47,686 nt of DNA from Elusimicrobiota bacterium (GTDB lineage Bacteria; Elusimicrobiota; Elusimicrobia; UBA1565): assembly GCA_016196755.1 (NCBI GenBank), contig JACPXC010000055.1, positions 1-47,686 on the forward strand, in the 5' to 3' direction. Of the stretch, positions 6,483 through 33,645 are shown piece after piece (the stretch's first letter is position 1; the number at the start of each line of letters is the position of its first letter). Made by a program: the position numbers and the translations under genes. The notes beneath the pieces were generated by a model. The model had not been told where the DNA came from. It saw nothing but the letters and a program-made list of their open reading frames with translations, and searched no databases.

Positions 6483-9400
6483 TTGCCGACGCCACCCCTC
6501 CGTAAGGCTTTCTTCGCATTGCTCGCGGCGCTCGCGCTCGCGCGCGCGAACGCATACGGGCAGTTCTCCCTGCCCTACGACCCCGATTTCCCGGAGTCCG
6601 CCCCAGAGGAGCCCGCCAAGGAGGACGGCACGGCCGCCGAGCCGGACACCCTCCCCCCGGAGGGGGTGGGCGGCCCGTTCCTGCTCCTCGACCGGCCCGA
6701 CCCGGCCAGCCCGCTGGGCGGCTCGCCGGCCGCCGCCGAGCCGTCCGGGGACCTCGAGCGCTTCCTGCGCGAGCAGCGCCCCTTCGAGGTCGGCCAGGAG
6801 CGCTGGAACCGGACGCGCGCGGCCGTCGACGAAGGCAGGGTGCCCGAGGACGAGTTCCCCGCCGCCCCGCCCGCCTACGTCGACGCCGGCGGCGAATACG
6901 TGATCGCCGGCGCCACCGAGCCTCCCAAACCCCCGGCCCCCGAGGTGGAGCTGCCCACCTACGGCACCAGCCTCTCGATCACCGGCCGCAAGACCATCTC
7001 CTTCGCCTTCAGCGAGAAGCGCTTCCTCTCCGAGCAGACGACCACCGGGCGCGGCGCCAGCCAGAACCTCATCGACATCGAGCAGCAGCTGCAGCTGCGG
7101 ATGCAGGGCAAGGTCGGCCCGAAGATCACGGTCAACGTCGACTACGACGACACCAAGGTCAACAAGCAGGACATCTCGGTGACCTACCAGGGCGACCCCA
7201 ACGAGGTGGTCCAGAACGCCTCCTTCGGCGACATCGACCTGAGCCTGCCCGCCACCGAGTTCGTCAGCTACAACAAGCAGCTCTTCGGCATCCGCGTCGA
7301 CCTCAAGTACAAGCGCGTCAAGGCCATCTTCATCGGCTCGCGCACCAAGGGCCAGACCAAGGCCAAGCAGTTCAAGGGCAACACCCAGCTCACCACCCAG
7401 GACATCCTCGACACGAGCTATATCCGGCGGCGCTACTACGACCTTACCTTCGGCGACATCCGCCGCCTGCCCCTGCAGGCCGGCTCCGAGCGCGTGTTCC
7501 TCTCCCGCCAGGTCGGCGGCCAGCAGAACGTCAACGAGGTGACCCGCACCGCCGACGACCTGGCCGTGCTGAGCTCGACCTTCACGGGCAGCTTCGTCGA
7601 GCTGGCGCGCGGCGTCGACTACACCGTCGACTACGTCAAGGGCATCCTGACCTTCCGCAACACCCTCGACGCCAACACCGTCGTGGCCGTCGACTTCATA
7701 GACACCACGGCCCGCTCGATCACCCAGCAGAGCTCGACCAACAGCGCCGCCGCGGGCGGCGGCACCGGGCTCATCAAGCTCGTCAAGACCTTCGGCGACG
7801 TCCAGATCTCCACCGAGTCCGAGGCCGGCTACCGCCGCGAGCTCAAGACCTTCTACAGCCTGGGCCGCAGCCAGGTCCTGCGCGACGACGGCCGCGGCAG
7901 CTTCTTTCTGCGCGTGCTCGACCAGAACCGCAACATAGTCGGGCCGACCCTCAACCCGCCCCAGACCTACCCGGAGACCGTCGAGGTCGACTTCGAGAAC
8001 GGCGTCCTCCAGCTCAAGCAGCCCTTCGCGGTGGCGGGCGACACCTCCACGCCGGACCCCGAGATATACGCGCCGAGCCCGCTCTCCAAGCGCCTCATCG
8101 AGCTCCAGTACCGCTTCCGCCTCAAGACCTTCTTCCTCGAGCCCAACCTGGTCCTGCAATCGGAGGTGGTGCTGGCCGACGGCGTGCGCCTGACCCGCAA
8201 CGTGGACTATTTCATCGACTACGAGTCGGGTTTTCTGACCTTCTTCAACGAGGACCGGATCAAGCCGGACTCGACGATCGACGTGACCTTCGAGGTGGCG
8301 CCGTTTGCCGGCAACGCCACGGAGTCCCTGCTGGGCGGACGTTTCGCCTACGAGCTGTGGAAGGACAAATGGTCGATCGGCTCGACGATGCTCTATCAGA
8401 CGGGCGCCAAAGGGCCCACGGTCCCCTCGATCAACGAGCTGGCCAAGAGCCTGCTCGTCTACGAGGTCGACACCCAGCTCACGAACATCCGCCTGGCCTC
8501 CTGGCTGAGCGCCACCTTCGCCGCCGAGATGGCGCAGAGCCGGTCCAACCCCAACCTCTCCAAGCGCGCGCTCATCGAGAACATGGAGGGCGTCAAGCAG
8601 GAGGACTCGACCGGATTTAGCGACGGCTTCTGGCAGCCGTCAGCCAACCCCACGCGCGCGCCGGCGGCCGCGACGGCCTTCACGATCACCTCGTTCGACG
8701 AGCAGATCCTGGCTATCAACCCGGCCGCGCCGGCCAAGCCCGGCGAGACCCAGAAGGTCGTCAAGCTCGACTACGACTTCACCGTCGCCGGCTCCTCGGA
8801 CGAAGTCTCGATGGTCTATCCTTTCTCGGCGACCGGCCTCGACTTCTCGCAGAAGACCGTCGTCGAGATCGTCCTGGCCCAGGGCGCCGTGTCGAACAAC
8901 CAGATACGCTTCCAGCTGGGCGGCGTCAACGAGGACTCCGACGGAGACGGCCTGACCGACACCGAGGACGTCGGCAAGGACGGCATCGCCAACACCAACG
9001 ACGAGGGCGAGCGGGACGGGATCCTGCAGCCCAACGAGGACATCGGCTGGAACTACGACCCGGCGGGCGCCGGCACCAAGCCGGTCGGCGCCGGCAACGG
9101 CCGCCTGGACTCCGAGGACCTCAACCGCAACGGCCGCATCCTGCCCGACGCCGAGGACCTCTCGGGAGACTCCTTCGGCTATCAGTCGAACAACCCCCAG
9201 CTCTTCGACGCCACCGACCGCTCGACGATCACCGCCCTGACTTTCGCGGGCTACCACACCCTCCAGATCCCGCTCAACATCTCCCAGGCCGACGCCCCGC
9301 GCTGGCTGGCCATCAAGCAGATCCGGATCTCAGTCCGGCGCGGCGCCGGAGGCGACACGGCGGGCAGCGTCAAGTTCGCGCGCATCGCCGTGATCGGCAA

Positions 9401-12035
9401 CACCTGGCAGCGCGGCCAGACCGGCAATCCGGCCACCGGCGTCACGGTGCCCGGAGCCTCGGCGCTGACGGTCACCGCCGTCAACAACGTCGACAACCTC
9501 GAGTACAAGGGCCGGGCCATCCAACTCGCCGGCGGCGACGCCTCGCAGGTCTTCAACGACCTCTACGGCTCGCTCGAGGAGCTCCAGAAGCAGTCGAACT
9601 CCCAGAACATCCAGGAGCAGGCCCTCAAGCTCGCCTACACCGGCCTGGCCGCCGGGACCACCGTCTTCACCAAGCGCGTCTTCGTGCGCGCCATCGACGT
9701 GAGCCAGCACCGCAACCTCAACTTCCTCGTCTTCACTAACGCGCAGCAATCGCTCTGTCCGGGAGACGGCAGCACCCTCGACACCACCGGCGAGCGCATC
9801 TTCTTCCTGCGCGGGGGCTCCGACCGCGACTTCTTCGAGGTCCGCGTGCCGATCCGCGACTGCGGCTGGCACAAGGTCTCGATCGAGCAGGTCGACCGCA
9901 ACGGGGACCAGCTCCCCGACGCCTGGGCCGTGGCCGGAGGCCCGCCGGGCAGCGTGGCTTTCTCGACCGGCAATCCCAGCCTCCAGCAGGTGGGCACCCT
10001 CGTCGCCGGCGTCTACAACGTCAGCCCCAGCACCACCGCCAACGGAGCGGTCTACCTCAACGAGATCCACGTCGACGGCCCCATCGTGCGGGTCGGCAAC
10101 GCCGAGAAGCTCCAGGCCGACTTCACGGTGGCCGGCTGGGGCAACTTCGGCGGCAAGTACCGCTTCGTCGACCGCAGCTACCAGACCCCGACCACGTTGG
10201 TCGCCAACCAGGACAACCTCTCCGAGAGCGCCTACCTGAACCTGACCCGCATCAGCTGGCTGCCCATGAGCTTCAACCTGAACTACTCGAAGGTCACCAC
10301 CCCCAACGTCAACGCCGTGGGCGATTTGAGCAACACGGTGACCCTGCTCGGCCTGGGGACGGTTCGCACCTGGAGCGGGACGGCCTCCGGGGCCTTCCAA
10401 CGCGCCGCCTTCCCGCGCCTGACCCTGGCCCACGAGCGCTTCCGCATCGAGTACGACCAGGGCTCGGGCCGCCTCGACGACCGCCGCACCTACAAGGCGG
10501 GCGGCAGCTACGGCGTCCCCTACAACAAGTTCTTCCTCCCCAGGTCCATCGACGGCGACTTCCTCCACTCGGTCTACTCGGTCAACTTCCTGACCCCCCA
10601 GACCCGCGCGATCGCGGGCAACTTCAACACCGACGAGCTGACCACCGGCTTCGGGGCGCGCATGAACTTCGAGCCCTGGCGCGGCTCGAGCTTCAACCCC
10701 AACTTCCAGACCCAGCGCGTCAAGGAGGACCGGCTCGACTTCAGCACGGGCCGCGAGGTCGGCAAGAGCTACCCCAAGTCGCTCTCCCAGACCGTGGGGT
10801 TCACCTCGAGCTGGAACATCCTGCCCTGGTTCAAGCCGGCGGCCAGCTACACCGTCAGCACCCTCGAGAACTACGTCCTCAACCCCTCGACCTTCATCGT
10901 GGCGGGCACGACCGGGACGACCGTCGTGTTCGACATCGGCGACATCAAGGCCATCAACCGCTCGGGCAACGGCAACGTCTCGCTGACCCTGTCGGCCGCC
11001 GAGATCTACAAGAAGACCCGCCTCCTGCGCTCCTTCACCATGACCAACGGCTACCAGCTCCAGGACGGCGACGTCTGGAACAACGTGGAGCGCGGGCTCG
11101 ACACCAAGACCGCCTTCTGGGTACGCTCCCCCCTGCGGCCGACGAGCCCCTTCGCCCAGCGCATCAACCTGACCGTGCGCGACACGTTCAACTCGACCCA
11201 GCGCTGGTCGCCGCTGGAGGCCTACGGCCTGACCGGGCGCCGGGCGCCCTACAGGACGCTCTCGGTCACCAACAACTTCGTGCGCTCGATCCAGAAGTCG
11301 GAGACGACCGGCACGCCGTCGAAGACGATCGCGACGACCCTGCCCGACCTCATCGCCTCGATGGGCAACCTCGAGCAGATCCTCCACGCCGAGCGCTGGG
11401 CCAAGAGCGTCCAGATGAACCTCAAGTACGCCTCGCGCCAGACCGAGAACGTCGCCGTGACCCTGCAGTCCGACAACAGCTTCGGCACCGACCTGCGGGC
11501 CATCATCCGCAACCGCTTCGACAGCTCGCTGAGCTTCAACCTGCGCTCCACGGAGAACACCGACCTGCGCATCGACCAGGTCACCCAGAGATCCGACCAC
11601 AAAGACGCCACCATCCAGACCACCTTCGACATCCGGCGCTTCCGCTTCACGCCCAAGGTCGACTACCAGAACGACACGACCTCCCTGGGCACCGGCCAGC
11701 GCACCCAAGACACGACCGCCATCACGCCGAGCCTGCTCGTGCGCGCCGACCTCGCCCTGCCGCGCGGCATGAAGCTGCCCTTCGGCAAGCGCCTGCTGAC
11801 CTTCACCAACCGCGTCATCTGGACGTCCACCCTCTCCCTGGCGATCCGCCAGTCGCCGATCACGATCGCCGACAACACGAAGCTCTTCAACCTCAACACC
11901 AGCGCCGACTACGAGATCGCCAAGAACCTGCGCATGACCCTAAACGGCGCGGTCTCGCGCCTGTGGCACAAGTTCCTGAAGGAGGAGGATTTCATCTCCT
12001 ACCAGTTCGGGACCCAGATGACGTTCCAGTTCTAA
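6483..12035 (+). CDS. SprA/Sov-like giant outer-membrane protein
   Basis: A 1850-residue secreted protein. The start is TTG at 6483 with a modest AGG 6 nt upstream, giving a signal peptide (MPTPPLRKAFFALLAALALARANAYG). From about residue 158 it follows the SprA N-terminal pattern: YGTSLSITGRKTI, EQQLQLRMQGKVG, VNVDYDDTK, YQGDPNEVVQNASFGDI, PATEFVSYNKQLFG and DILDTSYIRRRYYDL, and later ELWKDKWSIGSTMLYQTG. SprA/Sov forms the outer-membrane translocon of the type IX secretion system. An Asp/Asn/Gly-rich stretch around residues 818-900 looks like calcium-binding repeats. The C-terminal part is beta-rich and ends in aromatic F-Q-F, as for a beta-barrel. It is shorter than Bacteroidota SprA (about 2400 residues). 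No other type IX genes are visible nearby, so function as a translocon is inferred from the family. Confidence 0.7.
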   Translation: MPTPPLRKAFFALLAALALARANAYGQFSLPYDPDFPESAPEEPAKEDGTAAEPDTLPPEGVGGPFLLLDRPDPASPLGGSPAAAEPSGDLERFLREQRPFEVGQERWNRTRAAVDEGRVPEDEFPAAPPAYVDAGGEYVIAGATEPPKPPAPEVELPTYGTSLSITGRKTISFAFSEKRFLSEQTTTGRGASQNLIDIEQQLQLRMQGKVGPKITVNVDYDDTKVNKQDISVTYQGDPNEVVQNASFGDIDLSLPATEFVSYNKQLFGIRVDLKYKRVKAIFIGSRTKGQTKAKQFKGNTQLTTQDILDTSYIRRRYYDLTFGDIRRLPLQAGSERVFLSRQVGGQQNVNEVTRTADDLAVLSSTFTGSFVELARGVDYTVDYVKGILTFRNTLDANTVVAVDFIDTTARSITQQSSTNSAAAGGGTGLIKLVKTFGDVQISTESEAGYRRELKTFYSLGRSQVLRDDGRGSFFLRVLDQNRNIVGPTLNPPQTYPETVEVDFENGVLQLKQPFAVAGDTSTPDPEIYAPSPLSKRLIELQYRFRLKTFFLEPNLVLQSEVVLADGVRLTRNVDYFIDYESGFLTFFNEDRIKPDSTIDVTFEVAPFAGNATESLLGGRFAYELWKDKWSIGSTMLYQTGAKGPTVPSINELAKSLLVYEVDTQLTNIRLASWLSATFAAEMAQSRSNPNLSKRALIENMEGVKQEDSTGFSDGFWQPSANPTRAPAAATAFTITSFDEQILAINPAAPAKPGETQKVVKLDYDFTVAGSSDEVSMVYPFSATGLDFSQKTVVEIVLAQGAVSNNQIRFQLGGVNEDSDGDGLTDTEDVGKDGIANTNDEGERDGILQPNEDIGWNYDPAGAGTKPVGAGNGRLDSEDLNRNGRILPDAEDLSGDSFGYQSNNPQLFDATDRSTITALTFAGYHTLQIPLNISQADAPRWLAIKQIRISVRRGAGGDTAGSVKFARIAVIGNTWQRGQTGNPATGVTVPGASALTVTAVNNVDNLEYKGRAIQLAGGDASQVFNDLYGSLEELQKQSNSQNIQEQALKLAYTGLAAGTTVFTKRVFVRAIDVSQHRNLNFLVFTNAQQSLCPGDGSTLDTTGERIFFLRGGSDRDFFEVRVPIRDCGWHKVSIEQVDRNGDQLPDAWAVAGGPPGSVAFSTGNPSLQQVGTLVAGVYNVSPSTTANGAVYLNEIHVDGPIVRVGNAEKLQADFTVAGWGNFGGKYRFVDRSYQTPTTLVANQDNLSESAYLNLTRISWLPMSFNLNYSKVTTPNVNAVGDLSNTVTLLGLGTVRTWSGTASGAFQRAAFPRLTLAHERFRIEYDQGSGRLDDRRTYKAGGSYGVPYNKFFLPRSIDGDFLHSVYSVNFLTPQTRAIAGNFNTDELTTGFGARMNFEPWRGSSFNPNFQTQRVKEDRLDFSTGREVGKSYPKSLSQTVGFTSSWNILPWFKPAASYTVSTLENYVLNPSTFIVAGTTGTTVVFDIGDIKAINRSGNGNVSLTLSAAEIYKKTRLLRSFTMTNGYQLQDGDVWNNVERGLDTKTAFWVRSPLRPTSPFAQRINLTVRDTFNSTQRWSPLEAYGLTGRRAPYRTLSVTNNFVRSIQKSETTGTPSKTIATTLPDLIASMGNLEQILHAERWAKSVQMNLKYASRQTENVAVTLQSDNSFGTDLRAIIRNRFDSSLSFNLRSTENTDLRIDQVTQRSDHKDATIQTTFDIRRFRFTPKVDYQNDTTSLGTGQRTQDTTAITPSLLVRADLALPRGMKLPFGKRLLTFTNRVIWTSTLSLAIRQSPITIADNTKLFNLNTSADYEIAKNLRMTLNGAVSRLWHKFLKEEDFISYQFGTQMTFQF

Positions 12036-23725: not shown

Positions 23726-26700
23726 ATGATGGACCGACCCGGCTTCGACCCGTCCACCGTCAACGACGTGGAGACCGCGCGCCTGGCGCTGCGCTGGTCC
23801 CTGGAGAAGATCCACGCCCTCCAGGGCGAGCTCCAAGAGACCAAGGACGCCGCCACGGAGGCCGTCGACAAGCTCCGCATGGCCACCGAGAAGCTCGCCG
23901 AGAAGGACGGGGCGATCCTGCGCTGGCAGAGCACGATCAAGGTCTGGGAAGCCAACTACAAGGACCAGCAGAAGCTCGAGGAGGAGATCCGCGCCCGGCT
24001 CGAGAAGGAGGTGGTACGCGAGGAGGACGGGCGCGCCAAAGAGGAGCGCCGCCAGCTCAACCTGCAGATCGAGGCCCTCAAGACCGAGATCACCGGCAAG
24101 GAGGGCCAGCTCGGCCAGCTCCGGCGCGAACTCATCGACGCGGTCAAGGGTGCTAAGGTCGAGAAGGAGCGCGAGATGCAGGAGACCCTCGCCTACCAGG
24201 AGCGCGCCCTCGAGGAGACCAAGGGCTCGCTCCTCGAGCGCCTGCGCATCCAGCAGGAGGCCCTGCGCTCCCGCGAGCGCGACCTCGAGGACCAGCAGCG
24301 CCTGCTCGACGAGAAGGTCAAGGCTAAAGAGGTCGAGGTCCGGCGCAAGTTCGAGCGCTACGAGGAGGAGCACCTCAAGCACAACCGCGAGGTCCTCGAG
24401 CGCGAGGAGGCCGACCTCGCCGCCCGCTTCGAGGCCAAGCTCGTCCACAACGAATCGCTCCTGCGCGCCAAGGAGGGCCAGCTCGAGGACCGCCGCCGCC
24501 GGCTCGACGAGGAGCACGCGCGCCGGATGGACGAGGTCGAGGCCGTGGCCCGCCAGCGCCAGGAGAAGGAATGGAGCCGCCTCCAGGAGCGCCTCGAGGT
24601 CGAGCGAAAGCTCCTCGAGGAGCACTTCCGCCAGAAGGAGGCCCGCCTCGACGAGGACATCCTGCGCCGCAACGCGGAGGTCCAGACCCACTATCAAAAG
24701 ACCGAGGAGACCCTGATCGCCAAGTACCAGGCGGTCCAGAACCAGCTCATAGCCAAGGAGCGCGACCTCCACGCCGAGCACCATGCCCGCCTCGAGGTCG
24801 CCGACGAGAAGGGCCGCGCCGCCCTCCAGGCCAAGGAGGCCCAGCTCTTCGAGCGCCGCAAGGCCGAGGAGGCCGAGCTGGCCCGCCGCGAGGAGGCCCT
24901 GTTCGCGCGCGAGGGCGCCCTCCAGGACGAGGCGCGCCACCGGGAGATGGAGCTCTCCGAGAAATACCGCGCCCTCCAAGAGGAGCAGGCCGCCAAATCC
25001 AAGGAAGACTGGGAGCTCCAGACCCGGAAGTTCCAGGAGGCGCTCGGAGAGCAGCGGCGCCGGATCGAGTCCGAGCGCGCCGAGCTCGAGGACCGCGCCC
25101 GGGCACGGGAGGCCGAGCTCGACAAGCGCGCTCAGACGCTTGACGCCGAGCGGGCGCACGTCAAGGTCGAGGCCGCCGAGGCCCTCCGCGGGATGGCCGC
25201 GGCCCTCGACGAGAAGCTCCGCGCGCGCGAGAAGGAGTGGGGCGAGCGCCAGCGCGCGCTCGAGGCCTCGGAGGGCGAGCGCTGGGCGCGCCGCGAGCGC
25301 GAGCTCGAGGAGCGTCACCGCGCGGCCCTCGACGAGGCCAAGCTCCGCTTCGGCGCCGAGCTCGACGCCGAGCGCCGCGTCCTGGAGTCAGGCGACCAGC
25401 ATCGCCGAGAAGAGGTCTCCCGGGAGTTCCTGGCCCGCGAGAGCGAGCTGCGACGGAACCTGCAGGGCCAGCAGAGCGCCTGGCTGCGCGAGCAGGAGGC
25501 CGGGTTCGAGAAGCTGCGCCAGGAGCTCCTCGATAAGCATATGAAGGAGGCCGAGGCCCTGCGCTCCGAGAGCGAGGCCCGGATCGCCGCGCTGGAAACC
25601 GAGAAGAGCCGCAAGGTCCTTGAGGAGCGCAAGGCCCTCAACGAGGAGCACCGCCGCGCGTCCGCCGAGCTCGAAGCGCGCCAGGAGGCCCTCGAGAAGC
25701 GCGTGGCCGAGGAGCTCGAGCGCCGCAAGGCCCAGCTCGAGCTCGAGCAGGCCGCCGGCCTCGAGGTCGAGAAGGCCCGCCTGCGCCAAGAGCGCGCCGA
25801 ACTCGAGGCCCAGCACGCCCTTCTCAAGGAGACCCTTTCCGCGACGCTCGATGACAAAGAAAAGCGCCTGCGCGCCGAGTTCTTCGAGCGCGAGGCCGCG
25901 CTCAAGGCCGAGGGCGGGCGCAAGGAAGAGGTCTACCGCAAGGCCTACGAGGAGGCCGGAGCGCGCGAGAAGGCCAACCTCACGGCCCGCTATGAGGGCC
26001 TCGAGAAGACCCTTCGCGCCGACACCGCCGCGCGCGAGCGCTCGCTGCAGGAAGCCTGGGCCAAGCGCGAGCAGGATTGGCTGGTGCGCCGCGAGGAAGA
26101 GATCAAGGCCGAACGAGAGCGCCTCGAGGACGCCTTCCGCCAGAAGGAAGCCGCGCTCGACGGCCTACGCCAGTCGCTCGAGGAGCGCCACCAGGCGCGC
26201 CTGCGCGAGCTCGAGGGCATGGTCCGCGCGCGGACCCAAAAGCTCGAGGAGGCGATGACCCGCCAGCAGGAGGAGGTCGAGGCCGCGCGCCTGCAGCTGC
26301 AGATCGAGCTGCGCACCCGCGAGGCCCAGCTCGCCGAGACCCTGCGCCAGAAGGAGACCGAGATGCGCCGCGCCCTCGAGGAGCGCCGCGCCGAGCTCTC
26401 GCGCCTGGAGGCCGAGTTCCAGGCCTCCTCGGTCAAGCGCGAGGCGGAACTGCGCGAGGAACTCAGCCGCCGCCAGGCCGAGCTCATCAAGACCCAGCGA
26501 GAAGCCTTCGACCAGGAGCGCCGCGAGGCCGAGGCCGACGGCCTCAAGACCTGGGAGGAGCGCCGCCACCAGCTCGAGCTCCAGTACCAGCAGAAGGAGA
26601 AGCTCCTCGACGAGACCGTCACCGGGCGCTTCCGCGACGCCGAACTCGCCCTCGTGCAGAAGGAGAAGGACCTCATCCTGGCCTACGAGGACCGGCTGTT

Positions 26701-27328
26701 TAAGTCCCGCACCGAGGTGGAGACCTCCTACCGGGCCCGCGAGGAGGCCCTCGAGATGAAGTACCTCGAGATCGAACGCCGCATCACTTCCGAGCGGGTC
26801 TCCAAGGAGAACGCCTGGAACCTCCAGAAGCAGGAGCTCATCGAGCGCCAGATCGCCGCCCTGCGCGCGGACTTCGAGGCCAAGGGTGCCGAGGCCGCCG
26901 CGCGCGCCGAGGAGACCGACCGCCGGCTCGAGGAGCGCCGCAAGGGCCTCGAGGAGTCGCACGACAAGCGCCGCCGCGAGCTCGAGGCCGGCGTGGCCCA
27001 GGAGCGCGACCAGGCGCGCGCCTTCCTCGACCGCCGCTCCAAAGAGCTCGAGGACGCGTTCCGCGAGAAGTTCGCCGAGCTCGAGCGCGACAAGAACCGC
27101 GCCGCCTCATGGATCCAGCAGAAGGAGGAGGAGCTCCTCGAGCAGCACCAGAAGCACGAGGCCGACCTCCGCAAGGCCTGGGAGCTCAAGCAGCTCGAGC
27201 TCACCCACGCCTTCGACGAGCGCACCCGCAAGCTCGCCGAGGAGCGCGAGGGCCTCCAGAAGGACTACGAACGGCGCCTGCGCGAGATCGAGCTGCGCGG
27301 CAAGGACCGCCCGCACACTAAAGATTAG
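23726..27328 (+). CDS. giant coiled-coil protein
   Basis: A 1200-residue protein made almost entirely of heptad-patterned, Glu/Arg/Lys/Leu/Ala-rich helix (for example EEIRARLEKEVVREEDGRAK, LEERRKGLEESHDKRRRELE). There is no signal peptide, membrane segment, ATPase head or globular domain. Only the first 20 residues (MMDRPGFDPSTVNDVETARL) and the last ten (GKDRPHTKD) are not coiled-coil-like. ATG at 23726 and the next ATG are both possible. A single chain could extend over roughly 170 nm at 0.15 nm per residue. It is probably cytoplasmic and could be a filament, scaffold or spacer; no family was recognised. It is transcribed towards the CHASE2 cyclase, with 11 nt between the stop codons. Confidence 0.8.
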   Translation: MMDRPGFDPSTVNDVETARLALRWSLEKIHALQGELQETKDAATEAVDKLRMATEKLAEKDGAILRWQSTIKVWEANYKDQQKLEEEIRARLEKEVVREEDGRAKEERRQLNLQIEALKTEITGKEGQLGQLRRELIDAVKGAKVEKEREMQETLAYQERALEETKGSLLERLRIQQEALRSRERDLEDQQRLLDEKVKAKEVEVRRKFERYEEEHLKHNREVLEREEADLAARFEAKLVHNESLLRAKEGQLEDRRRRLDEEHARRMDEVEAVARQRQEKEWSRLQERLEVERKLLEEHFRQKEARLDEDILRRNAEVQTHYQKTEETLIAKYQAVQNQLIAKERDLHAEHHARLEVADEKGRAALQAKEAQLFERRKAEEAELARREEALFAREGALQDEARHREMELSEKYRALQEEQAAKSKEDWELQTRKFQEALGEQRRRIESERAELEDRARAREAELDKRAQTLDAERAHVKVEAAEALRGMAAALDEKLRAREKEWGERQRALEASEGERWARRERELEERHRAALDEAKLRFGAELDAERRVLESGDQHRREEVSREFLARESELRRNLQGQQSAWLREQEAGFEKLRQELLDKHMKEAEALRSESEARIAALETEKSRKVLEERKALNEEHRRASAELEARQEALEKRVAEELERRKAQLELEQAAGLEVEKARLRQERAELEAQHALLKETLSATLDDKEKRLRAEFFEREAALKAEGGRKEEVYRKAYEEAGAREKANLTARYEGLEKTLRADTAARERSLQEAWAKREQDWLVRREEEIKAERERLEDAFRQKEAALDGLRQSLEERHQARLRELEGMVRARTQKLEEAMTRQQEEVEAARLQLQIELRTREAQLAETLRQKETEMRRALEERRAELSRLEAEFQASSVKREAELREELSRRQAELIKTQREAFDQERREAEADGLKTWEERRHQLELQYQQKEKLLDETVTGRFRDAELALVQKEKDLILAYEDRLFKSRTEVETSYRAREEALEMKYLEIERRITSERVSKENAWNLQKQELIERQIAALRADFEAKGAEAAARAEETDRRLEERRKGLEESHDKRRRELEAGVAQERDQARAFLDRRSKELEDAFREKFAELERDKNRAASWIQQKEEELLEQHQKHEADLRKAWELKQLELTHAFDERTRKLAEEREGLQKDYERRLREIELRGKDRPHTKD

Positions 27329-27339
27329 CGCGCCCGCGG

Positions 27340-29652
27340 CTATTTGCTCGTGGCCGTGAAGACCCCGTCCCACGACGGGCCCGGCGGCTCCGCGCGGCAG
27401 GCCGCGATCCTGTCCTCGTAGAGGTGGTAGAGCTTGCCGAGGCCCAGCCCCAGCGCGTCTGCATCTTTCCCGCATTCCGACATAAGCGCCGAAGCCTCGT
27501 CCCAGCGCTGGCCGCGGTAGGCCGCCAACATCTCAGCGTGGCGCCCTGCCAGCTTCTGAAACCGCGGGTCCCCCGCCAGCTTTTCGTCGCCGAGCAGAGT
27601 ATAGATGTGGACCGGCACGGTCTTGCCCTTCACCTTGATGAGGTCGAGCTCGAGCACCGCGAAGCCGGGGGCCGCGGCCTTGGTGTTCGGGCCGATGACG
27701 ACGTCGACGCCGTAGCTCTTGGATTGACCCTCGAGACGTGAGGCGAGGTTGACGTCGTCGCCGAGGACCGAGTAGTCGAAGCGCATGTCCGAGCCCATGT
27801 TCCCGACGCAGCAAGGCCCCGTGTTGAGCCCGATCCCGGCGTGGATGGGGATGAACGGGCGGTTCGCGGCCTTGGCCTCCGCCTCCCAGCCCGCGTTGAG
27901 GGCCACGAGGTCCCGGCGCATCGCCAACGCGGCGCGGCAGGCATTCAGCGGATGGCCCGGCACCTCGAGCGGGGCGTTCCAGAACGCCATGATGCAGTCG
28001 CCCATGTACTTGTCGATCGTCCCGCCGTGGTCGAGCACCACCTGGGTCATCGGGGTCAGGTAGCGGTTGATGAAGGTGGTCAGGCCGTGGGCGTCGAACT
28101 GCTCCGAGATGGTCGTGAAGCCGCGGATGTCGGAGAACATCAGGGTCATCTCGCGGACCTCGCCCCCGAGCTTGAGACGCGAGGGGTCCTGGGCCAGCTG
28201 CTCGACTAAATCAGGGGACATGTAGCGGCTGAAGGCGCCGCGCACCTGGCGCTTCTCGGCCTCGTTGCGCAGGTAGCCCACCAGGGTCGAGGTGATGTAG
28301 ACCGCCAGGACCACGAATGAGGGCAGGACGGGGTCGAAGAGCAGGCGGCGCCCGCCGAAAGCGCCGTTGAAGGCCTGCCACGACAGCCAGATCACCAGCG
28401 AGACCGACCCCGCGGTCAGCAGCGCGCACCAGGCCGCCCCGAGGCGGTTCATCAAGGCGATGAGGAGGACGCCGAGGACGATGAAGAAGATCTTCTCGAT
28501 CTGGTCCGCGTAGTCCGGGCGCTCGAGGAAATGGCCGCCGATGACTTGCTCGGCGATCTGGGCGTGGAGCTCGACCCCCGGGGCCGTCGGGTTGCGCGGC
28601 GTGGCGCGCAGGTCCTTGAGGCCGGCGGCGCTCGTGCCGATGAAGGCGATCCCCCCCCCGAGCTCGGCCGGGTCGAAGCCCTTGTCGAAGAGCTTCCACG
28701 CCGGGATCGTGCGCGGGACGAAGGGGTCGGTGAAGTGCAGCCAGACCCCCCCCTCGGAGTCGGTCGGGATGGTCAGCGGCGCGCCCTCCACCGGGATGCG
28801 CACCGCTACCACGCCGCTCGTCGCCCCGTAGGTCCGCTCCCCGCTGCCCCCGGCCGACTTGAGGATGTAGTTCTGGTCGGCGCCGGCGGCCAGGCGGAGG
28901 GCCTCGAGGGCCAGGGACGGGTAGAGATTCTCTCCGATCCGGAAGACCAGCGACACGCGGCGGATGACGCCGTCAAGGTCCGGGTTCGAGTTGATCGAGC
29001 CGTTCCCGGCGATGGCGGCCTCGAGGAGCGGGCGGTTGACGATGGCGCCGGTGAAAGACGGCAGATAGGCGGACACGTCCGGCCCCGAGATGTTGAAGCC
29101 GCGCTTGAGCGCCGGCAGGCGCGCGCCGTGCTCATGGACGAGACTGAAGCCCATCATGACCGAGGTCCCCTCCCGCTCAGCCGCCTTGACGGCCCGAGCC
29201 AGGACCTCGTCGGAGTCGGGCAAGCCGGCCAGCCGCGCCTTGACGTCGGCGAGGGAAGCCGGTAGGCTGCGGGCCAACTCGCGCGGCGAGGTCCGGTCCG
29301 CCTCGGCGAAGATGGCGTCGAAGGCCACGACCCGCACCTGGCCCGAGAAGCGCGCGACGAAATCGGCGAGCAAAGTGCGCGGCCAGGGCCATTGGCCGAG
29401 CTTCGCCAGGGTCTCGTCATCGATGTCGATGACCCGCACGCCCAGGCCGGGGTCATAGGGCCGCGGGGCGCTGCGCTGGTACTGGTCGAAGACCTTGAGC
29501 TGGAAGGCGCGCACCAGGTCGAAGTCGGCGTTGAAGACCGCCACGGCCGCGACCAGCACCATCCCGGGCAGCATGATGTGGGTCCAGCGATGGATGAAGC
29601 GCTGGTTCCCTTCGATCGTCTCTTTGAGCTTCTCGGCAGTCCTGCGCAGCAT
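27340..29652 (-). CDS. CHASE2-domain class III adenylate cyclase
   Basis: About 770 residues. It has a short cytoplasmic start, one membrane helix (IMLPGMVLVAAVAVF, around 26-40) and a CHASE2 sensor domain facing the periplasm (about 50-375, with VRVIDIDDETLAKLGQWPWPR and VVAFDAIFAEADR). Three close membrane helices follow (about 380-460), then a class III cyclase domain. The metal Asp is in MFSDIRGFTT (near 505), with KYMGDCIMAFWNAP. FDYSVLGDDVNLASRLEG carries the Asp that favours ATP and the Asn/Arg transition-state pair. All catalytic residues appear intact, so cAMP production is expected. ATG at 29652 gives a normal N-terminus; an in-frame ATG at 29706 is possible but nearly reaches the divergent gene. 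CHASE2 cyclases often neighbour FecR-domain proteins, as here. Confidence 0.88.
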   Translation of the reverse strand: MLRRTAEKLKETIEGNQRFIHRWTHIMLPGMVLVAAVAVFNADFDLVRAFQLKVFDQYQRSAPRPYDPGLGVRVIDIDDETLAKLGQWPWPRTLLADFVARFSGQVRVVAFDAIFAEADRTSPRELARSLPASLADVKARLAGLPDSDEVLARAVKAAEREGTSVMMGFSLVHEHGARLPALKRGFNISGPDVSAYLPSFTGAIVNRPLLEAAIAGNGSINSNPDLDGVIRRVSLVFRIGENLYPSLALEALRLAAGADQNYILKSAGGSGERTYGATSGVVAVRIPVEGAPLTIPTDSEGGVWLHFTDPFVPRTIPAWKLFDKGFDPAELGGGIAFIGTSAAGLKDLRATPRNPTAPGVELHAQIAEQVIGGHFLERPDYADQIEKIFFIVLGVLLIALMNRLGAAWCALLTAGSVSLVIWLSWQAFNGAFGGRRLLFDPVLPSFVVLAVYITSTLVGYLRNEAEKRQVRGAFSRYMSPDLVEQLAQDPSRLKLGGEVREMTLMFSDIRGFTTISEQFDAHGLTTFINRYLTPMTQVVLDHGGTIDKYMGDCIMAFWNAPLEVPGHPLNACRAALAMRRDLVALNAGWEAEAKAANRPFIPIHAGIGLNTGPCCVGNMGSDMRFDYSVLGDDVNLASRLEGQSKSYGVDVVIGPNTKAAAPGFAVLELDLIKVKGKTVPVHIYTLLGDEKLAGDPRFQKLAGRHAEMLAAYRGQRWDEASALMSECGKDADALGLGLGKLYHLYEDRIAACRAEPPGPSWDGVFTATSK

Positions 29653-29734
29653 GTCCGGCGGGATTATCCCATAGTCTTGACGCTTATGTGACCTTTTTGG
29701 GACCATCCCGTCTCTCTATTAAGGACAGGAGCCC

Positions 29735-31111
29735 ATGAAGAAAATCACGCTGCTGCTGCTCGCCGCCTTGGCGGCCATGCCGGTCCTTGCTCAAGACATC
29801 GACGAGGAGGCTCGCCGGTCGGCCCGCCAGGCCGAAACCGAAAAGCGTTCCGAGAAGGCCGCCGCCGAGGCCTCGGACCGCAAGCCCCTCGAAGGGGCCG
29901 GCTCGGTCACTTATGAGGACGTCCTGGCTCAGCCCGACAACGTGGAGCTCAACTACCGCTGGGCCAAGAAGCAGGTCGAGGCCGGCGACATCAAGGGCGC
30001 CTCGGCCACCCTCGAGCGCATCCTGATGGTCAAGCCCGGCTTGACCCGGATCCGCCTGACCTACGCGGTGATCCTTTACCGGCTAGACAACATGGCCGAG
30101 GCCCGCCGCGAGCTCGAGCTCGTGAAGGCCCAGTCCTCGGGCGCCGTCCGCGCCGAGGCCGAGGAGTACCTGGCGCGGGTCGAGAAGCGCACCCGCCTCA
30201 CCCATTTCCACGGCACTCTCGGGGTCGGCTACCAGTACGACGACAACCGCAACGCCGGACCGGCCTCCCATCAGCGGCTCTTCCGAGGCACGGCCCTGAA
30301 CCTGGCCACCGGGCGTGCCACCGACGACACCAGCGTCCTCATGCTGGCCGGGTTCGGCGTGCGGCGCGACCTGCGGGGCCCGCTGGCCAAGGCCCTGTTC
30401 GCCGACCTCAACTACTACCGCGCCGAGCAGACCAACCTCGACACGCTGGACCTGCAGGCCTACTCCTTCGCCGCCGGCGCGGAGTTCAAGCTCGGACGGC
30501 TCACGGTCACGCCGACGGCCCTGGCCGACCACATCCGCCTCTCCGAGGAGACCTACCTGCGCACCCGCGGAGGCCGCCTGCGCTTCGACCGCAGGCTCAA
30601 CAAGCGCATGGCCGTCCACGCCATCGCTCAGGTGCTCGTCAACGACCACATCCGGACCACCGACATCCCGACCGCCACCGAGCGCACCGGCACGGAGTCC
30701 ACGCTCCGCGGCGGGGCCAGCCTGGTCGTGGCGCCGACCCAACGCGTGGCCGCCGAGTACGGCTATCAACAGAAGGACGCCCGCAAGATGTACATCGCCT
30801 ACGACCGCCATTCGCTGGCCCTCACCCATACCTGGCTCATCGGCGGGGGCCGCTTCCTCCTGAGCGGCCTGGGGATCGACCGCGACCGCTACGCCGCGCC
30901 CGACCTGGTCATCGCCAGCGCCGAGCGCGCCGACGACCGCGCCCGCGTCCACCTCACGATCGGCCAGCCGCTGGGATTTCTCGGCAAGCTCTTCGAGCCC
31001 ATGCTCCTGACCGCCGGCTACGAGTACCTGCACGTGAACTCGAACATCCTCAACTACGCCTACACCAACAACAAGGTCAACACAATGCTGATCTACCGCT
31101 GGGACCACTGA
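29735..31111 (+). CDS. Slam-like TPR plus beta-barrel outer-membrane protein
   Basis: A 458-residue protein with signal peptide MKKITLLLLAALAAMPVLAQ and a charged linker. Two or three TPR-like helical hairpins cover residues 60-150 (ADNVELNYRWAKKQVEAGD-type repeats, then TRIRLTYAVILYRLDNMAEARREL). From about 155 alternating beta-strands (FHGTLGVGYQYDDNRNAG, ADLNYYRAEQ and LTPTALADHIRL-type strands) run to the C-terminal LIYRWDH. This TPR-plus-barrel layout is that of Slam (DUF560) proteins, which move surface lipoproteins across the outer membrane. AGGACAGGAG precedes ATG at 29735. It is the first gene of a run with two FecR-domain proteins that may be its substrates; that is inference. Confidence 0.65.
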   Translation: MKKITLLLLAALAAMPVLAQDIDEEARRSARQAETEKRSEKAAAEASDRKPLEGAGSVTYEDVLAQPDNVELNYRWAKKQVEAGDIKGASATLERILMVKPGLTRIRLTYAVILYRLDNMAEARRELELVKAQSSGAVRAEAEEYLARVEKRTRLTHFHGTLGVGYQYDDNRNAGPASHQRLFRGTALNLATGRATDDTSVLMLAGFGVRRDLRGPLAKALFADLNYYRAEQTNLDTLDLQAYSFAAGAEFKLGRLTVTPTALADHIRLSEETYLRTRGGRLRFDRRLNKRMAVHAIAQVLVNDHIRTTDIPTATERTGTESTLRGGASLVVAPTQRVAAEYGYQQKDARKMYIAYDRHSLALTHTWLIGGGRFLLSGLGIDRDRYAAPDLVIASAERADDRARVHLTIGQPLGFLGKLFEPMLLTAGYEYLHVNSNILNYAYTNNKVNTMLIYRWDH

Positions 31112-31120
31112 GGCAACGCC

Positions 31121-32377
31121 ATGAAAATCTCCCTACTCCTCCTCGTCCTGCTCGTCCCCGCCGTCCGCGCCGCCGAGCCCGTGTCGATCGGCGCCGCCGC
31201 GGCGGTCTCCGGAGCCGTGTCGGCCGCCGCCCCGGGAGCCGCCACGCGCTCAGTGGAAAGCGGCGCCCGGATGTTCCATAAGGACGCCGTCACGACCGAC
31301 GCCCAAGGGCGCCTCCAGGTCATGCTGCTCGACGAGACGGTCTTTACGATGGGGCCGGGCAGCCGGATCGTCCTCGACGAGTTCGTCTACGACCCCTTCA
31401 CGAGCGCGGGGAAGGTCACGGCCGAGGTCACCAAAGGCGTGTTCCGCTTCGTCTCCGGGAAGACCGCGCGCCGCTCGCCCGAGGGACTCAAGGTCAAGCT
31501 CCCGGTCGGGACTTTAGGGATCCGCGGCACGATCGCCGGCGGCAAGGTAGAAGGCGACTCGGCCCTCATCGCGCTGCTGGGACCCGGACAGGACAACAAC
31601 GCCGACGAGCGGCCGGGGGCCGTGTCGGTCGAGAACGCCGGCACCACGGTCATGCTCGACGAGCCCGGCACCGCCACGCGCATCCCAAGCGCCGGCGAGC
31701 CCCCCTCCCCCCCGTTCGTCCTCACCCCCGAGCTCCTGGCGGAGCTCTCGGCCGCCCCGCCCGGCGGCGACTCGGGTTCCGAGCCGGCCGCCGGCGGCTC
31801 GGCCTCCGAGGAGTCGGGCCAGGAGACCGCGGCCGGAAAGGTGGGGGCCGGGGACACCCTCGGCCTCGACGATGAGCAGCAGTCCCTCGCCGAGGCCTCG
31901 GCGTTCGCTTCACAGTCGCTGGGCTCGGGGGTCTTCACCTGGGAGGACCTGCGCGCGGCAATCCAGAGCGGGACGGCCTTCTACGACGGCACGGGCAACT
32001 ACTCCTGCAGCGGCGGCGCATGCGGGGGCGGGAACTCCGGCAACTTCGCCCTCCATTTCAACGTCAACTGGGGCGACCGCGAAATCGGCGGACCCTCGCC
32101 TCAGACCTCCCACTTCGCCATCACCACCGGCCCATTAAATACCGGGACCGAGACGCCGGCCTCCAATATCCCATTCATCAGCTTCGCGGCCCTCAGCGGC
32201 GGGGCCACGCTGACCCAAGGACCGGACTTCTCCGGGTCCGACTCAAACTTCGACGGCAGCTCGTTCACCTTCAAGGACGCGCGGACCGTCGAAGGGACCC
32301 TCCAGTACAGCATCGGCGGCGCCACCGCCAGCGGCAACGTGACCTCGCCCTGCATCTCGGGGGACTGCCCGCCTTGA
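31121..32377 (+). CDS. secreted FecR-domain protein with C-terminal barrel-like domain (copy 1)
   Basis: A 418-residue exported protein. A signal peptide (MKISLLLLVLLVPAVRA) is followed by a FecR domain (about 35-150; MFHKDAVTTDAQGRLQVMLLDETVFTMGPGSRIVLDEFVYDP and GTLGIRGT). A Ser/Gly/Glu-rich low-complexity linker (about 195-255) leads to a C-terminal beta-rich domain (about 265-410) opening with FYDGTGNYSCSGGACGGG and containing FALHFNVNWGDREIGG. The C-domain resembles the small barrels of Slam-exported proteins. Unlike classic FecR it has no membrane anchor or anti-sigma N-terminus. It follows the Slam-like gene by 9 nt and overlaps copy 2 by 4 nt. Confidence 0.8.
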   Translation: MKISLLLLVLLVPAVRAAEPVSIGAAAAVSGAVSAAAPGAATRSVESGARMFHKDAVTTDAQGRLQVMLLDETVFTMGPGSRIVLDEFVYDPFTSAGKVTAEVTKGVFRFVSGKTARRSPEGLKVKLPVGTLGIRGTIAGGKVEGDSALIALLGPGQDNNADERPGAVSVENAGTTVMLDEPGTATRIPSAGEPPSPPFVLTPELLAELSAAPPGGDSGSEPAAGGSASEESGQETAAGKVGAGDTLGLDDEQQSLAEASAFASQSLGSGVFTWEDLRAAIQSGTAFYDGTGNYSCSGGACGGGNSGNFALHFNVNWGDREIGGPSPQTSHFAITTGPLNTGTETPASNIPFISFAALSGGATLTQGPDFSGSDSNFDGSSFTFKDARTVEGTLQYSIGGATASGNVTSPCISGDCPP

Positions 32378-33645
32378 ACGCCCTCCTGTTAGGGACAGCG
32401 CTGCTGACGGCCGCCGCCAACGCCGCCGAGCCCGTGCGCATCGGCGCGGCGGGCGGGGTGGCCGGGAAGGTGGCCGCCACGCCGCGGGGCGGGACGGCCG
32501 CCCGCGCGCTGGCCAGCGGCGGGTCGGTCTTCCACAAGGACGCCATCACCACCGACGCGCAGGGCCGCCTGCAGGTCCTGCTCCTCGACCAGACCGTCTT
32601 CACGATGGGACCCGACAGCCGCATCATCCTCGACGAGTTCGTCTACGACCCCTTCACGACCAAGGGCAAGGTGGCCGCCGAGGTCACCAAGGGCGTGTTC
32701 CGCTTCGTGACCGGCAAGTCCGCCCACGGCGACCCCAAGCTCACCAAGATCAAGACCCCGGCCGGCACCATCGGCATCCGCGGCACCTTCGGCGCCGGCA
32801 AGCTCGACGCAGACGGCAACCTGCTCGTCGGATTGTTGGGTCCCGGCGCCGACAACGACGCCGACGAGAACCAGGGAGGCCTCGAGGTCTCCAACGACAA
32901 GGGCTCGGTCAACCTCGACGAGCCCGGGACCGGGACGATCGTCAAGGACGGGGAGGGCCCCAGCGACCCCTTCAAGCTCTCCGCCAAGGACCTCTCCGAC
33001 CTCGAGACCGGCGGCGGGTCGGGCGAGGGCTCCGGGGACGGCTCCGGCGGCGGCGCCAGCTCCTCGGAGGAGGCCGGCTCGGACCTCGCCGAGAGCAAGA
33101 AGGACGCCGGGGAGACCAGGGACACGGGGGAGACGAGCCAGGACAACTCCGAGCTGTCCACCTTCGCCGCGCAGATGACCTCGGGAGTCCAGGACAGGTT
33201 CGCCAAGTGGGACGACGTGCGCACGATCGAGTCCGGGGAGGCGCTCTACTACGGGCAGGCCCCCTGGAACCTCGCCGTCTGCGACGGCGGCGCCTGCGCC
33301 AACGGCAGCGAGGGCGAGATGACGTTCCAGATGAACATCGATTTCGGCCAGCGCACCTACGGCGGCAGCGGCTCGTCCGTCTTCGCTAACGACACCGACG
33401 CGAACGCCAACGGGGGCAACCCGGTCAACCCGTCGATCGCGATCAACCAGGAATCCTTCGCGGCGCTCTCGGGCCTTGCCCATATCTCGGTCTCGGACGC
33501 CCAGCACACGGCCATCATCGACATCCTCAACGACGGCGGCACGGCCAACAAGGCCACGGCCACCCTGAGCTACAACGACTCGGAATTCATCAAGGGAGCC
33601 GGGATAGCGACCGGGACCCTCAACGAGGGCTTCATCCCTCAATAG
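32374..33645 (+). CDS. secreted FecR-domain protein with C-terminal barrel-like domain (copy 2)
   Basis: A 423-residue paralog of copy 1. The start is TTG at 32374, overlapping the previous stop (TTGA), with GGGGGA about 10 nt upstream. It gives signal peptide MNALLLGTALLTAAANAAEP. The FecR domain is close to copy 1 (FHKDAITTDAQGRLQVLLLD, TVFTMGPDSRIILDEFVYDP, GTIGIRGTFG). The acidic Ser/Gly linker is richer (GSGEGSGDGSGGGASSSEEA). The C-domain keeps the Cys motif (VCDGGACANG) and the IDFGQRTYGG strand, but the rest has diverged. Tandem duplication with strong conservation of the FecR part and divergence of the tail suggests a shared sensor or anchor with different outward-facing domains. Confidence 0.8.
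   Translation: MNALLLGTALLTAAANAAEPVRIGAAGGVAGKVAATPRGGTAARALASGGSVFHKDAITTDAQGRLQVLLLDQTVFTMGPDSRIILDEFVYDPFTTKGKVAAEVTKGVFRFVTGKSAHGDPKLTKIKTPAGTIGIRGTFGAGKLDADGNLLVGLLGPGADNDADENQGGLEVSNDKGSVNLDEPGTGTIVKDGEGPSDPFKLSAKDLSDLETGGGSGEGSGDGSGGGASSSEEAGSDLAESKKDAGETRDTGETSQDNSELSTFAAQMTSGVQDRFAKWDDVRTIESGEALYYGQAPWNLAVCDGGACANGSEGEMTFQMNIDFGQRTYGGSGSSVFANDTDANANGGNPVNPSIAINQESFAALSGLAHISVSDAQHTAIIDILNDGGTANKATATLSYNDSEFIKGAGIATGTLNEGFIPQ

Follow-up and report, generated by a model that had tools for sequence, protein, structure and literature searches.

Gene content of the locus

The window analysed here is a stretch of 47,686 nucleotides from an Elusimicrobiota bacterium (contig JACPXC010000055.1), and its subject is a set of four genes at 27340-33645: a CHASE2-domain adenylate cyclase and, divergent from it, a run of three genes for a Slam-like outer-membrane protein and two FecR-domain proteins (Table 1). 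A sequence-only reading of the window had proposed these four genes, and every one was recovered at the same position. It is somewhat more probable than an even chance, in our assessment, that they form an envelope signalling unit in which a C-terminal barrel of the FecR proteins is exported while their FecR domain remains periplasmic and is read by CHASE2.

Table 1. Coordinates of the features of the four-gene locus and of the CHASE2 kinases at related loci (aa, amino acids; TPR, tetratricopeptide repeat; T11SS, type XI secretion system; pLDDT, predicted local distance difference test)
Feature	Coordinates	Strand	Basis
CHASE2 adenylate cyclase, 788 aa	27340..29706	-	Pfam: CHASE2 3e-50, Guanylate_cyc 8.6e-18; alternative start 29652 gives 770 aa
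CHASE2 periplasmic sensor domain, residues 52-415	28462..29553	-	Pfam
Class III cyclase catalytic domain, residues 518-703, intact catalytic motifs	27598..28155	-	Pfam and motif check
Intergenic region common to the divergent cyclase and Slam-like genes	29707..29734	.	29653-29734 with the internal ATG start
Slam/T11SS-like outer-membrane protein, 458 aa	29735..31111	+	Pfam, AlphaFold2 model, family profiles, fold search
Periplasmic TPR repeats, residues 60-152	29912..30190	+	Pfam and model
Predicted 14-strand outer-membrane beta-barrel, residues 156-457	30200..31105	+	Model, pLDDT 89; CymA Z 22.6, OmpG Z 21.4
FecR protein 1, 418 aa: signal peptide, FecR domain, linker, C-terminal barrel	31121..32377	+	Pfam; barrel by homology to the FecR protein 2 model and barrel profile
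Putative C-terminal cargo barrel, FecR protein 1	31922..32374	+	Homology/profile
FecR protein 2, 423 aa, TTG start overlapping the FecR protein 1 stop (TTGA)	32374..33645	+	Open reading frame, Pfam
FecR beta domain, FecR protein 2, model residues 22-216, PupR/FecR-like	32437..33021	+	Model; PupR Z 15.6
Linker, FecR protein 2, residues 214-273, low confidence, probably disordered	33013..33192	+	pLDDT under 50
Predicted C-terminal 8-strand cargo barrel, FecR protein 2, residues 274-420, near-invariant C-x4-C	33193..33633	+	Model; fHbp C-barrel Z 10.7
CHASE2-HisKA-HATPase kinases, five Elusimicrobiota loci	L051:9853-11886, L052:6150-8213, L054:2671-4725, L058:4695-6809, L061:678-2678		

The cyclase combines a CHASE2 domain with intact class III catalytic residues: the motifs FSDIRGFT, DKYMGD and FDYSVLGDDVNLASR are all present, as had been read from the sequence. 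The 82-nt gap earlier given between the cyclase and the three-gene run applies with the internal ATG at 29652 and shrinks to 28 nt for the longer open reading frame. One sigma70-like match, by consensus only, lies on the minus strand between the divergent genes (29692-29663), and inspection of this intergenic region by eye for a CRP-type site gave nothing convincing. Receivers of cyclic AMP (cAMP) are available in the genome of the window, since it encodes at least 11 strong cyclic-nucleotide (cNMP)-binding domains.

The Slam-like outer-membrane protein

The AlphaFold2 model of the 458-aa protein (35 sequences) places TPR helices before a 14-strand barrel, in agreement with the TPR/barrel layout noted earlier; N-terminal TPRs followed by a C-terminal 14-strand barrel are the layout of Slam/T11SS exporters, which the protein is thus predicted to share. 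Pfam searches returned TPR_19 (3.1e-9), SlipAM (PF04575, E 0.001) and TPR_Slam (0.0086). Of 35 family members, 13 matched SlipAM at E 0.01 or below (best 2.4e-9) and nine matched TPR_Slam. An ordinary porin, which the sequence-only reading had named as the result that would speak against it, was rejected as the sole reading of the protein because TPRs are present and relatives match SlipAM. The Slam resemblance claimed by that reading is therefore retained: the protein likely belongs to the Slam/T11SS family, at a distance.

The FecR proteins and their C-terminal barrels

Both downstream genes encode a FecR domain (PF04773) above the Pfam cut-off. Their coupling, with the TTG of the second gene overlapping the TGA of the first by 4 nt, had already been noted and is kept in two sister genomes. 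The signal peptides of the earlier reading were recognised by eye only, with putative cleavage at ANA/AEP and VRA/AEP. Neither FecR protein has a lipobox Cys at the cleavage site, so only the soluble T11SS subclass is possible for them.

In the model of FecR protein 2 (pLDDT 81), the FecR beta domain is separated from the 8-strand barrel by about 60 low-confidence linker residues. The FecR domain was superposed on the cell-surface signalling domain of PupR at 2.7 Å over 137 aligned residues (VIA-align, Z score in Table 1). A fold search with the barrel returned the fHbp C-barrel 4ayn (118 aligned, 3.2 Å), NHBA (6cuj, Z 10.7), TbpB (Z 8.3) and HphA (8glo, Z 7.6), with Ail (Z 8.5) as the one non-cargo barrel among the matches listed. 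The proteins fHbp, TbpB and hemophilin-type HphA are Slam/T11SS cargo; the dependence of NHBA on Slam is not settled.

It is thus the C-terminal barrel, not the FecR domain, that looks like Slam cargo. A C-terminal barrel of the TbpB/fHbp/hemophilin type is found at the fold level in the window and at the sequence level in homologues: in a Paracoccus module the C-terminus of the FecR protein matches NF041636 (NCBIfam 'Slam-dependent surface lipoprotein', 5.5e-9) and TbpB_B_D (2.3e-4), and FHBP_C is also matched by the barrel region in homologous alphaproteobacterial plasmid modules. With a predicted 8-strand cargo-like barrel at the C-terminus of the FecR proteins, exporter and cargo appear to be encoded side by side, the predicted cargo gene adjoining the Slam-like gene as at Slam/T11SS loci. 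A barrel profile search of the genome of the window retrieved these two FecR proteins only.

Across relatives, the FecR proteins range from about 410 to 1670 aa, the extra sequence lying between FecR domain and barrel; in the Paracoccus protein (L146:5898-7865) collagen-like GPTGPT repeats separate the FecR domain from the Slam-cargo barrel. The sole PDB sequence match of window-type FecR proteins was the surface-anchoring domain of MpAFP (5ix9, E 0.0033), and the LapA retention family NF033682 gave a weak match (E 0.0053, 17 bits against a cut-off of 50).

These barrels bear on an arrangement in which nothing is exported: the TPR-barrel protein would be a receptor or dock, the FecR proteins would be wholly periplasmic and bridge to CHASE2, and the small barrel would bind the TPRs or the inner face of the large barrel. 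The barrel fold of the 458-aa protein alone does not prove export, and NsrA, which works with the cyclase CyaK, unites FecR, TPR and barrel in a single chain (PMC7529298). The small barrel nevertheless resembles Slam cargo, and the collagen-like stalks and long FecR-to-barrel inserts of homologues fit display rather than a periplasmic bridge; we hold such a static complex to be improbable, and prefer export of the barrel with retention of the FecR domain.

Cargo-barrel genes were also seen away from an exporter, in genomes G038 (contig C27:122085-123203) and G010 (contig C34:13499-13948). The former has a FecR match in apparently the same open frame, which suggests that a single Slam-like protein may also handle cargo whose genes lie elsewhere.

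Conservation of the gene set

In a protein search, the Slam-like protein was found in 32/57 genomes, most of them of the same order. Of 38 loci of relatives at the order level, 36 had a FecR gene directly beside the Slam-like gene and 34 had a CHASE2 gene; wherever one was missing, no more than about 1.2 kb separated the Slam-like gene from the end of the contig. The nearest named relatives of the window are Elusimicrobia metagenome-assembled genomes from groundwater. The three-gene set is also found in Thalassospira, other Rhodospirillales, Omnitrophota and 'Deltaproteobacteria' metagenome-assembled genomes. Its order varies, with a divergent cyclase in Elusimicrobiota and the arrangement SLAM-FecR-AC on one strand in Thalassospira and at locus L045.

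Conservation across the order and in several phyla argues that the gene set is not due to chance, and the varying gene order argues that its co-occurrence is not inherited linkage alone. The sequence-only reading had staked its case on the genes not being rare companions elsewhere; the neighbourhood survey found them together (FecR 36/38, CHASE2 34/38, several phyla), and this very strong co-occurrence supports the functional linkage that it had claimed. That the genes are unrelated in function, or just loosely co-regulated neighbours, could appeal to the divergent orientation of the cyclase in Elusimicrobiota, but is strongly disfavoured by near-complete co-occurrence in several phyla under differing gene order, and we give it hardly any weight beside a signalling unit.

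In Shinella and Ensifer (L147:10089-16919 and L145:735-6773), genes for NHLP-type bacteriocin exporters and for a protein that binds cyclic nucleotides lie next to the module. The Ensifer FecR protein is barrel-less, with only a 104-aa TPR protein at the Slam position.

Association of FecR with CHASE2 and of the barrel with Slam

At five Elusimicrobiota loci, a CHASE2-HisKA-HATPase histidine kinase replaces the cyclase beside the Slam-FecR pair (Table 1); CHASE2 is thus the constant part and the output is variable. A sample centred on the cyclase comprised 40 loci from the order Rhodospirillales. Slam was present in 8/40, and FecR carried a barrel in all eight. FecR occurred without Slam in four loci, and the three proteins that were complete (270-296 aa) were all barrel-less. 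Six plasmid loci (Ruegeria, Rhizobium, S. meliloti and Methylosinus) likewise encode a barrel-less FecR protein beside a CHASE2 cyclase and no Slam. From this sample and the plasmid loci together, FecR goes with CHASE2 and the barrel with Slam.

Partial rank correlations of domain distances (mirror-tree) were computed for 47 loci, excluding the CHASE2-kinase loci, which had been included in a first run and distort the cyclase column. FecR-CHASE2 was the top pair in both runs, though the two domains are in different proteins; without the kinase loci it gave 0.48 (95% interval 0.27-0.63), and the Slam barrel and cargo barrel gave 0.33. No FecR was found beside 20 Slam-less CHASE2 loci of the order of the window; in this phylum, therefore, CHASE2 genes do not generally have FecR beside them.

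Type I exporters and giant FecR proteins

The remaining cyclases of the cyclase-centred sample (at most 49% identical to that of the window) mostly lie beside an ABC exporter and HlyD adaptor, often with a TolC-like protein. Such a type I exporter was recognised in 11 of 13 neighbourhoods read by eye, and was Pfam-checked in three. In 15/16 genomes having a cyclase beside a type I exporter, FecR domains were also present in open frames longer than 1000 aa, and the FecR domain was N-terminal in the giant frames inspected in this and related genomes. One giant protein with FecR and RTX repeats, from Rhodospirillales, is encoded divergently from a CHASE2 cyclase (L159:9087-15001, continuing in L195); its match to the LapA retention family (6.5e-8) is below the cut-off of that family. 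Similar giants occur in related genomes, with frames of up to 9810 aa and type I exporters beside the cyclase. On these grounds, the LapA-family match and the MpAFP match (5ix9) among them, we take the FecR domain to be periplasmic and the remainder of the protein to be exported.

A wider generalisation is possible, though we put it below an even chance: FecR would be a general periplasmic reporter, N-terminal on surface-exported proteins and read by CHASE2, used by two unrelated exporters, Slam/T11SS with small-barrel cargo and type I systems with giant RTX adhesins, and a CHASE2 cyclase or kinase would stand next to each. If true, surface-protein export would be wired directly to a second messenger.

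The giant proteins also bear on a secretion checkpoint, in which the FecR proteins would be fully exported or released and CHASE2 would sense the leftover periplasmic pool, so that cAMP would report export success and not a surface ligand. Such a checkpoint would predict the same gene content, and without a lipobox the FecR proteins resemble the soluble T11SS class such as hemophilin. Retention is favoured, however, by the giant FecR-RTX proteins with their N-terminal FecR domain and LapA retention match, and NsrA holds FecR covalently in the envelope. We rate the checkpoint as unlikely, though less so than the static complex, and continue with a retained FecR domain on an exported barrel.

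Proposed mechanism

The data computed here are gene order, domain content, predicted folds, co-occurrence, the CHASE2 output swap and the link of the barrel on FecR proteins to Slam. Beyond them we infer export via the Slam-like protein, FecR retention, FecR-CHASE2 contact, a direction of regulation and a ligand, as follows. The two FecR proteins would enter the periplasm via Sec. The 8-strand barrel would act as a Slam/T11SS-type cargo handle and be moved to the cell surface by the TPR-barrel protein, while the long linker would span the exporter and the N-terminal FecR domain would remain periplasmic. The CHASE2 domain of the inner-membrane cyclase would read the presence, position or conformation of the FecR domain, so that surface binding or barrel display would change cAMP and, through it, CRP-type regulators.

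The sequence-only reading had the Slam-like protein display the FecR proteins, with CHASE2 sensing their state and converting it to cAMP. Its gene linkage and Slam resemblance stand, and its topology does not: barrel out and FecR in is more likely, because a wholly displayed FecR protein could not be read by a periplasmic CHASE2, and also because the FecR domain matches PupR/FecR and MpAFP domains and pairs with CHASE2 where Slam is absent. The cargo barrel, the CHASE2-kinase replacements and the NsrA-CyaK precedent are additions to that reading.

Several results weigh against the proposal. The SlipAM score of the 458-aa protein, 19.1 bits, is below the cut-off of 22. Its fold search gave generic 14-strand porins, CymA and OmpG among them, and there was no Slam structure among the matches listed; the fold therefore agrees with Slam but cannot single Slam out, a fold search alone being unable to separate Slam from OmpG/CymA. 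The sequence link between barrel and Slam cargo comes from alphaproteobacterial homologues only, and profile comparison of the Elusimicrobiota cargo barrel with the Paracoccus barrel found no link, which confines the sequence-level evidence to those homologues. Two exceptions to the pairing were seen: an Azospirillum plasmid with Slam and a barrel-less FecR protein and no cyclase nearby, and one of two Tistlia pairs without a barrel. Finally, the mirror-tree pattern holds in Elusimicrobiota and was not replicated in 20 non-Elusimicrobiota loci, and is therefore only suggestive.

Other features of the window and genome

A 1200-aa coiled-coil-like protein (23726-27328, plus strand) is convergent with the cyclase and has no Pfam or NCBIfam match; it is found next to the module in L025-L028 as well, from four genomes of the same family. 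At 6483-12035 (plus strand), the window has an 1850-aa open frame with no Pfam match, either a real gene or a shadow frame. Contig C51 of the same genome (L043) encodes two more CHASE2 proteins, a cyclase and a Ser/Thr protein kinase, and neither FecR nor Slam lies nearby.

Significance

The environmental factors recognised by CHASE2 domains have been described as unknown (PMC5192318). The locus suggests a specific input, namely the FecR tail of a protein that would be exported at its opposite end, and the conserved gene set could report cell-surface events to the cell interior. If true, this would add signalling to nutrient capture and adhesion as roles of T11SS, and would do so outside Proteobacteria. 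Cultivable hosts (Thalassospira) would allow a gene-by-gene test of the surface-to-cAMP pathway.

Comparison with known systems

The locus resembles type XI secretion/Slam with its TbpB, fHbp and HphA cargo in that a TPR and 14-strand exporter is predicted beside cargo with a C-terminal 8-strand barrel; it differs in the N-terminal FecR domain of the cargo and in encoding a CHASE2 receptor. The text of the T11SS surveys searched makes no mention of FecR or CHASE2.

FecA-FecR-FecI and PupR share the FecR fold as a periplasmic signalling domain. In the window, by contrast, this part is on a predicted exported protein and the output would be cAMP; the FecR protein starts with a signal-peptide-like stretch followed by the FecR domain, unlike an anti-sigma FecR, and the scanned window neighbours include no sigma factor and no TonB receptor or transducer. 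LapA/MpAFP-type RTX adhesins are exported surface proteins with a FecR-related domain at the N-terminus, but are giant and secreted by type I systems, and the LapA-family match of the window proteins is below the cut-off.

A Burkholderia biofilm operon also pairs a FecR protein with a CHASE2 receptor, here a histidine kinase; its FecR protein has a peptidoglycan-binding LysM domain, and no Slam or cargo barrel is described (PMC5192318). A survey of Campylobacterota noted CHASE2 cyclases in clusters that also encode a phosphodiesterase, a FecR protein of the outer membrane and a TPR protein; its available part suggests that these act in a single pathway and that there was horizontal transfer involving other phyla (PMC9239204). 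The phosphodiesterase sets these clusters apart from the window, as does the lack, in the same part of the survey, of any recognised exporter, Slam or cargo barrel (PMC9239204).

The nearest proven precedent is NsrA-CyaK of Sinorhizobium meliloti, where NsrA is described as an outer-membrane receptor whose ligand, a protein signal, raises cAMP via CyaK (PMC7529298, PMC13001267). The nsrA gene, identified by its position beside cyaK and by its size, lies upstream of this CHASE2 cyclase gene. Profile comparison found no direct homology between the NsrA barrel and the Slam-like barrel; nor is a Slam exporter or cargo barrel recognised in the parts of the NsrA-CyaK literature available (PMC7529298, PMC13001267). 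NsrA is one 1190-aa chain without a cargo barrel, whereas the window distributes its FecR domain, TPRs and outer-membrane barrel over separate proteins; in both, all three are encoded beside a CHASE2 cyclase. Slam secretion, plant-signal perception by NsrA-CyaK and CHASE2-FecR clusters, which are unconnected in the literature searched, are joined at this locus.

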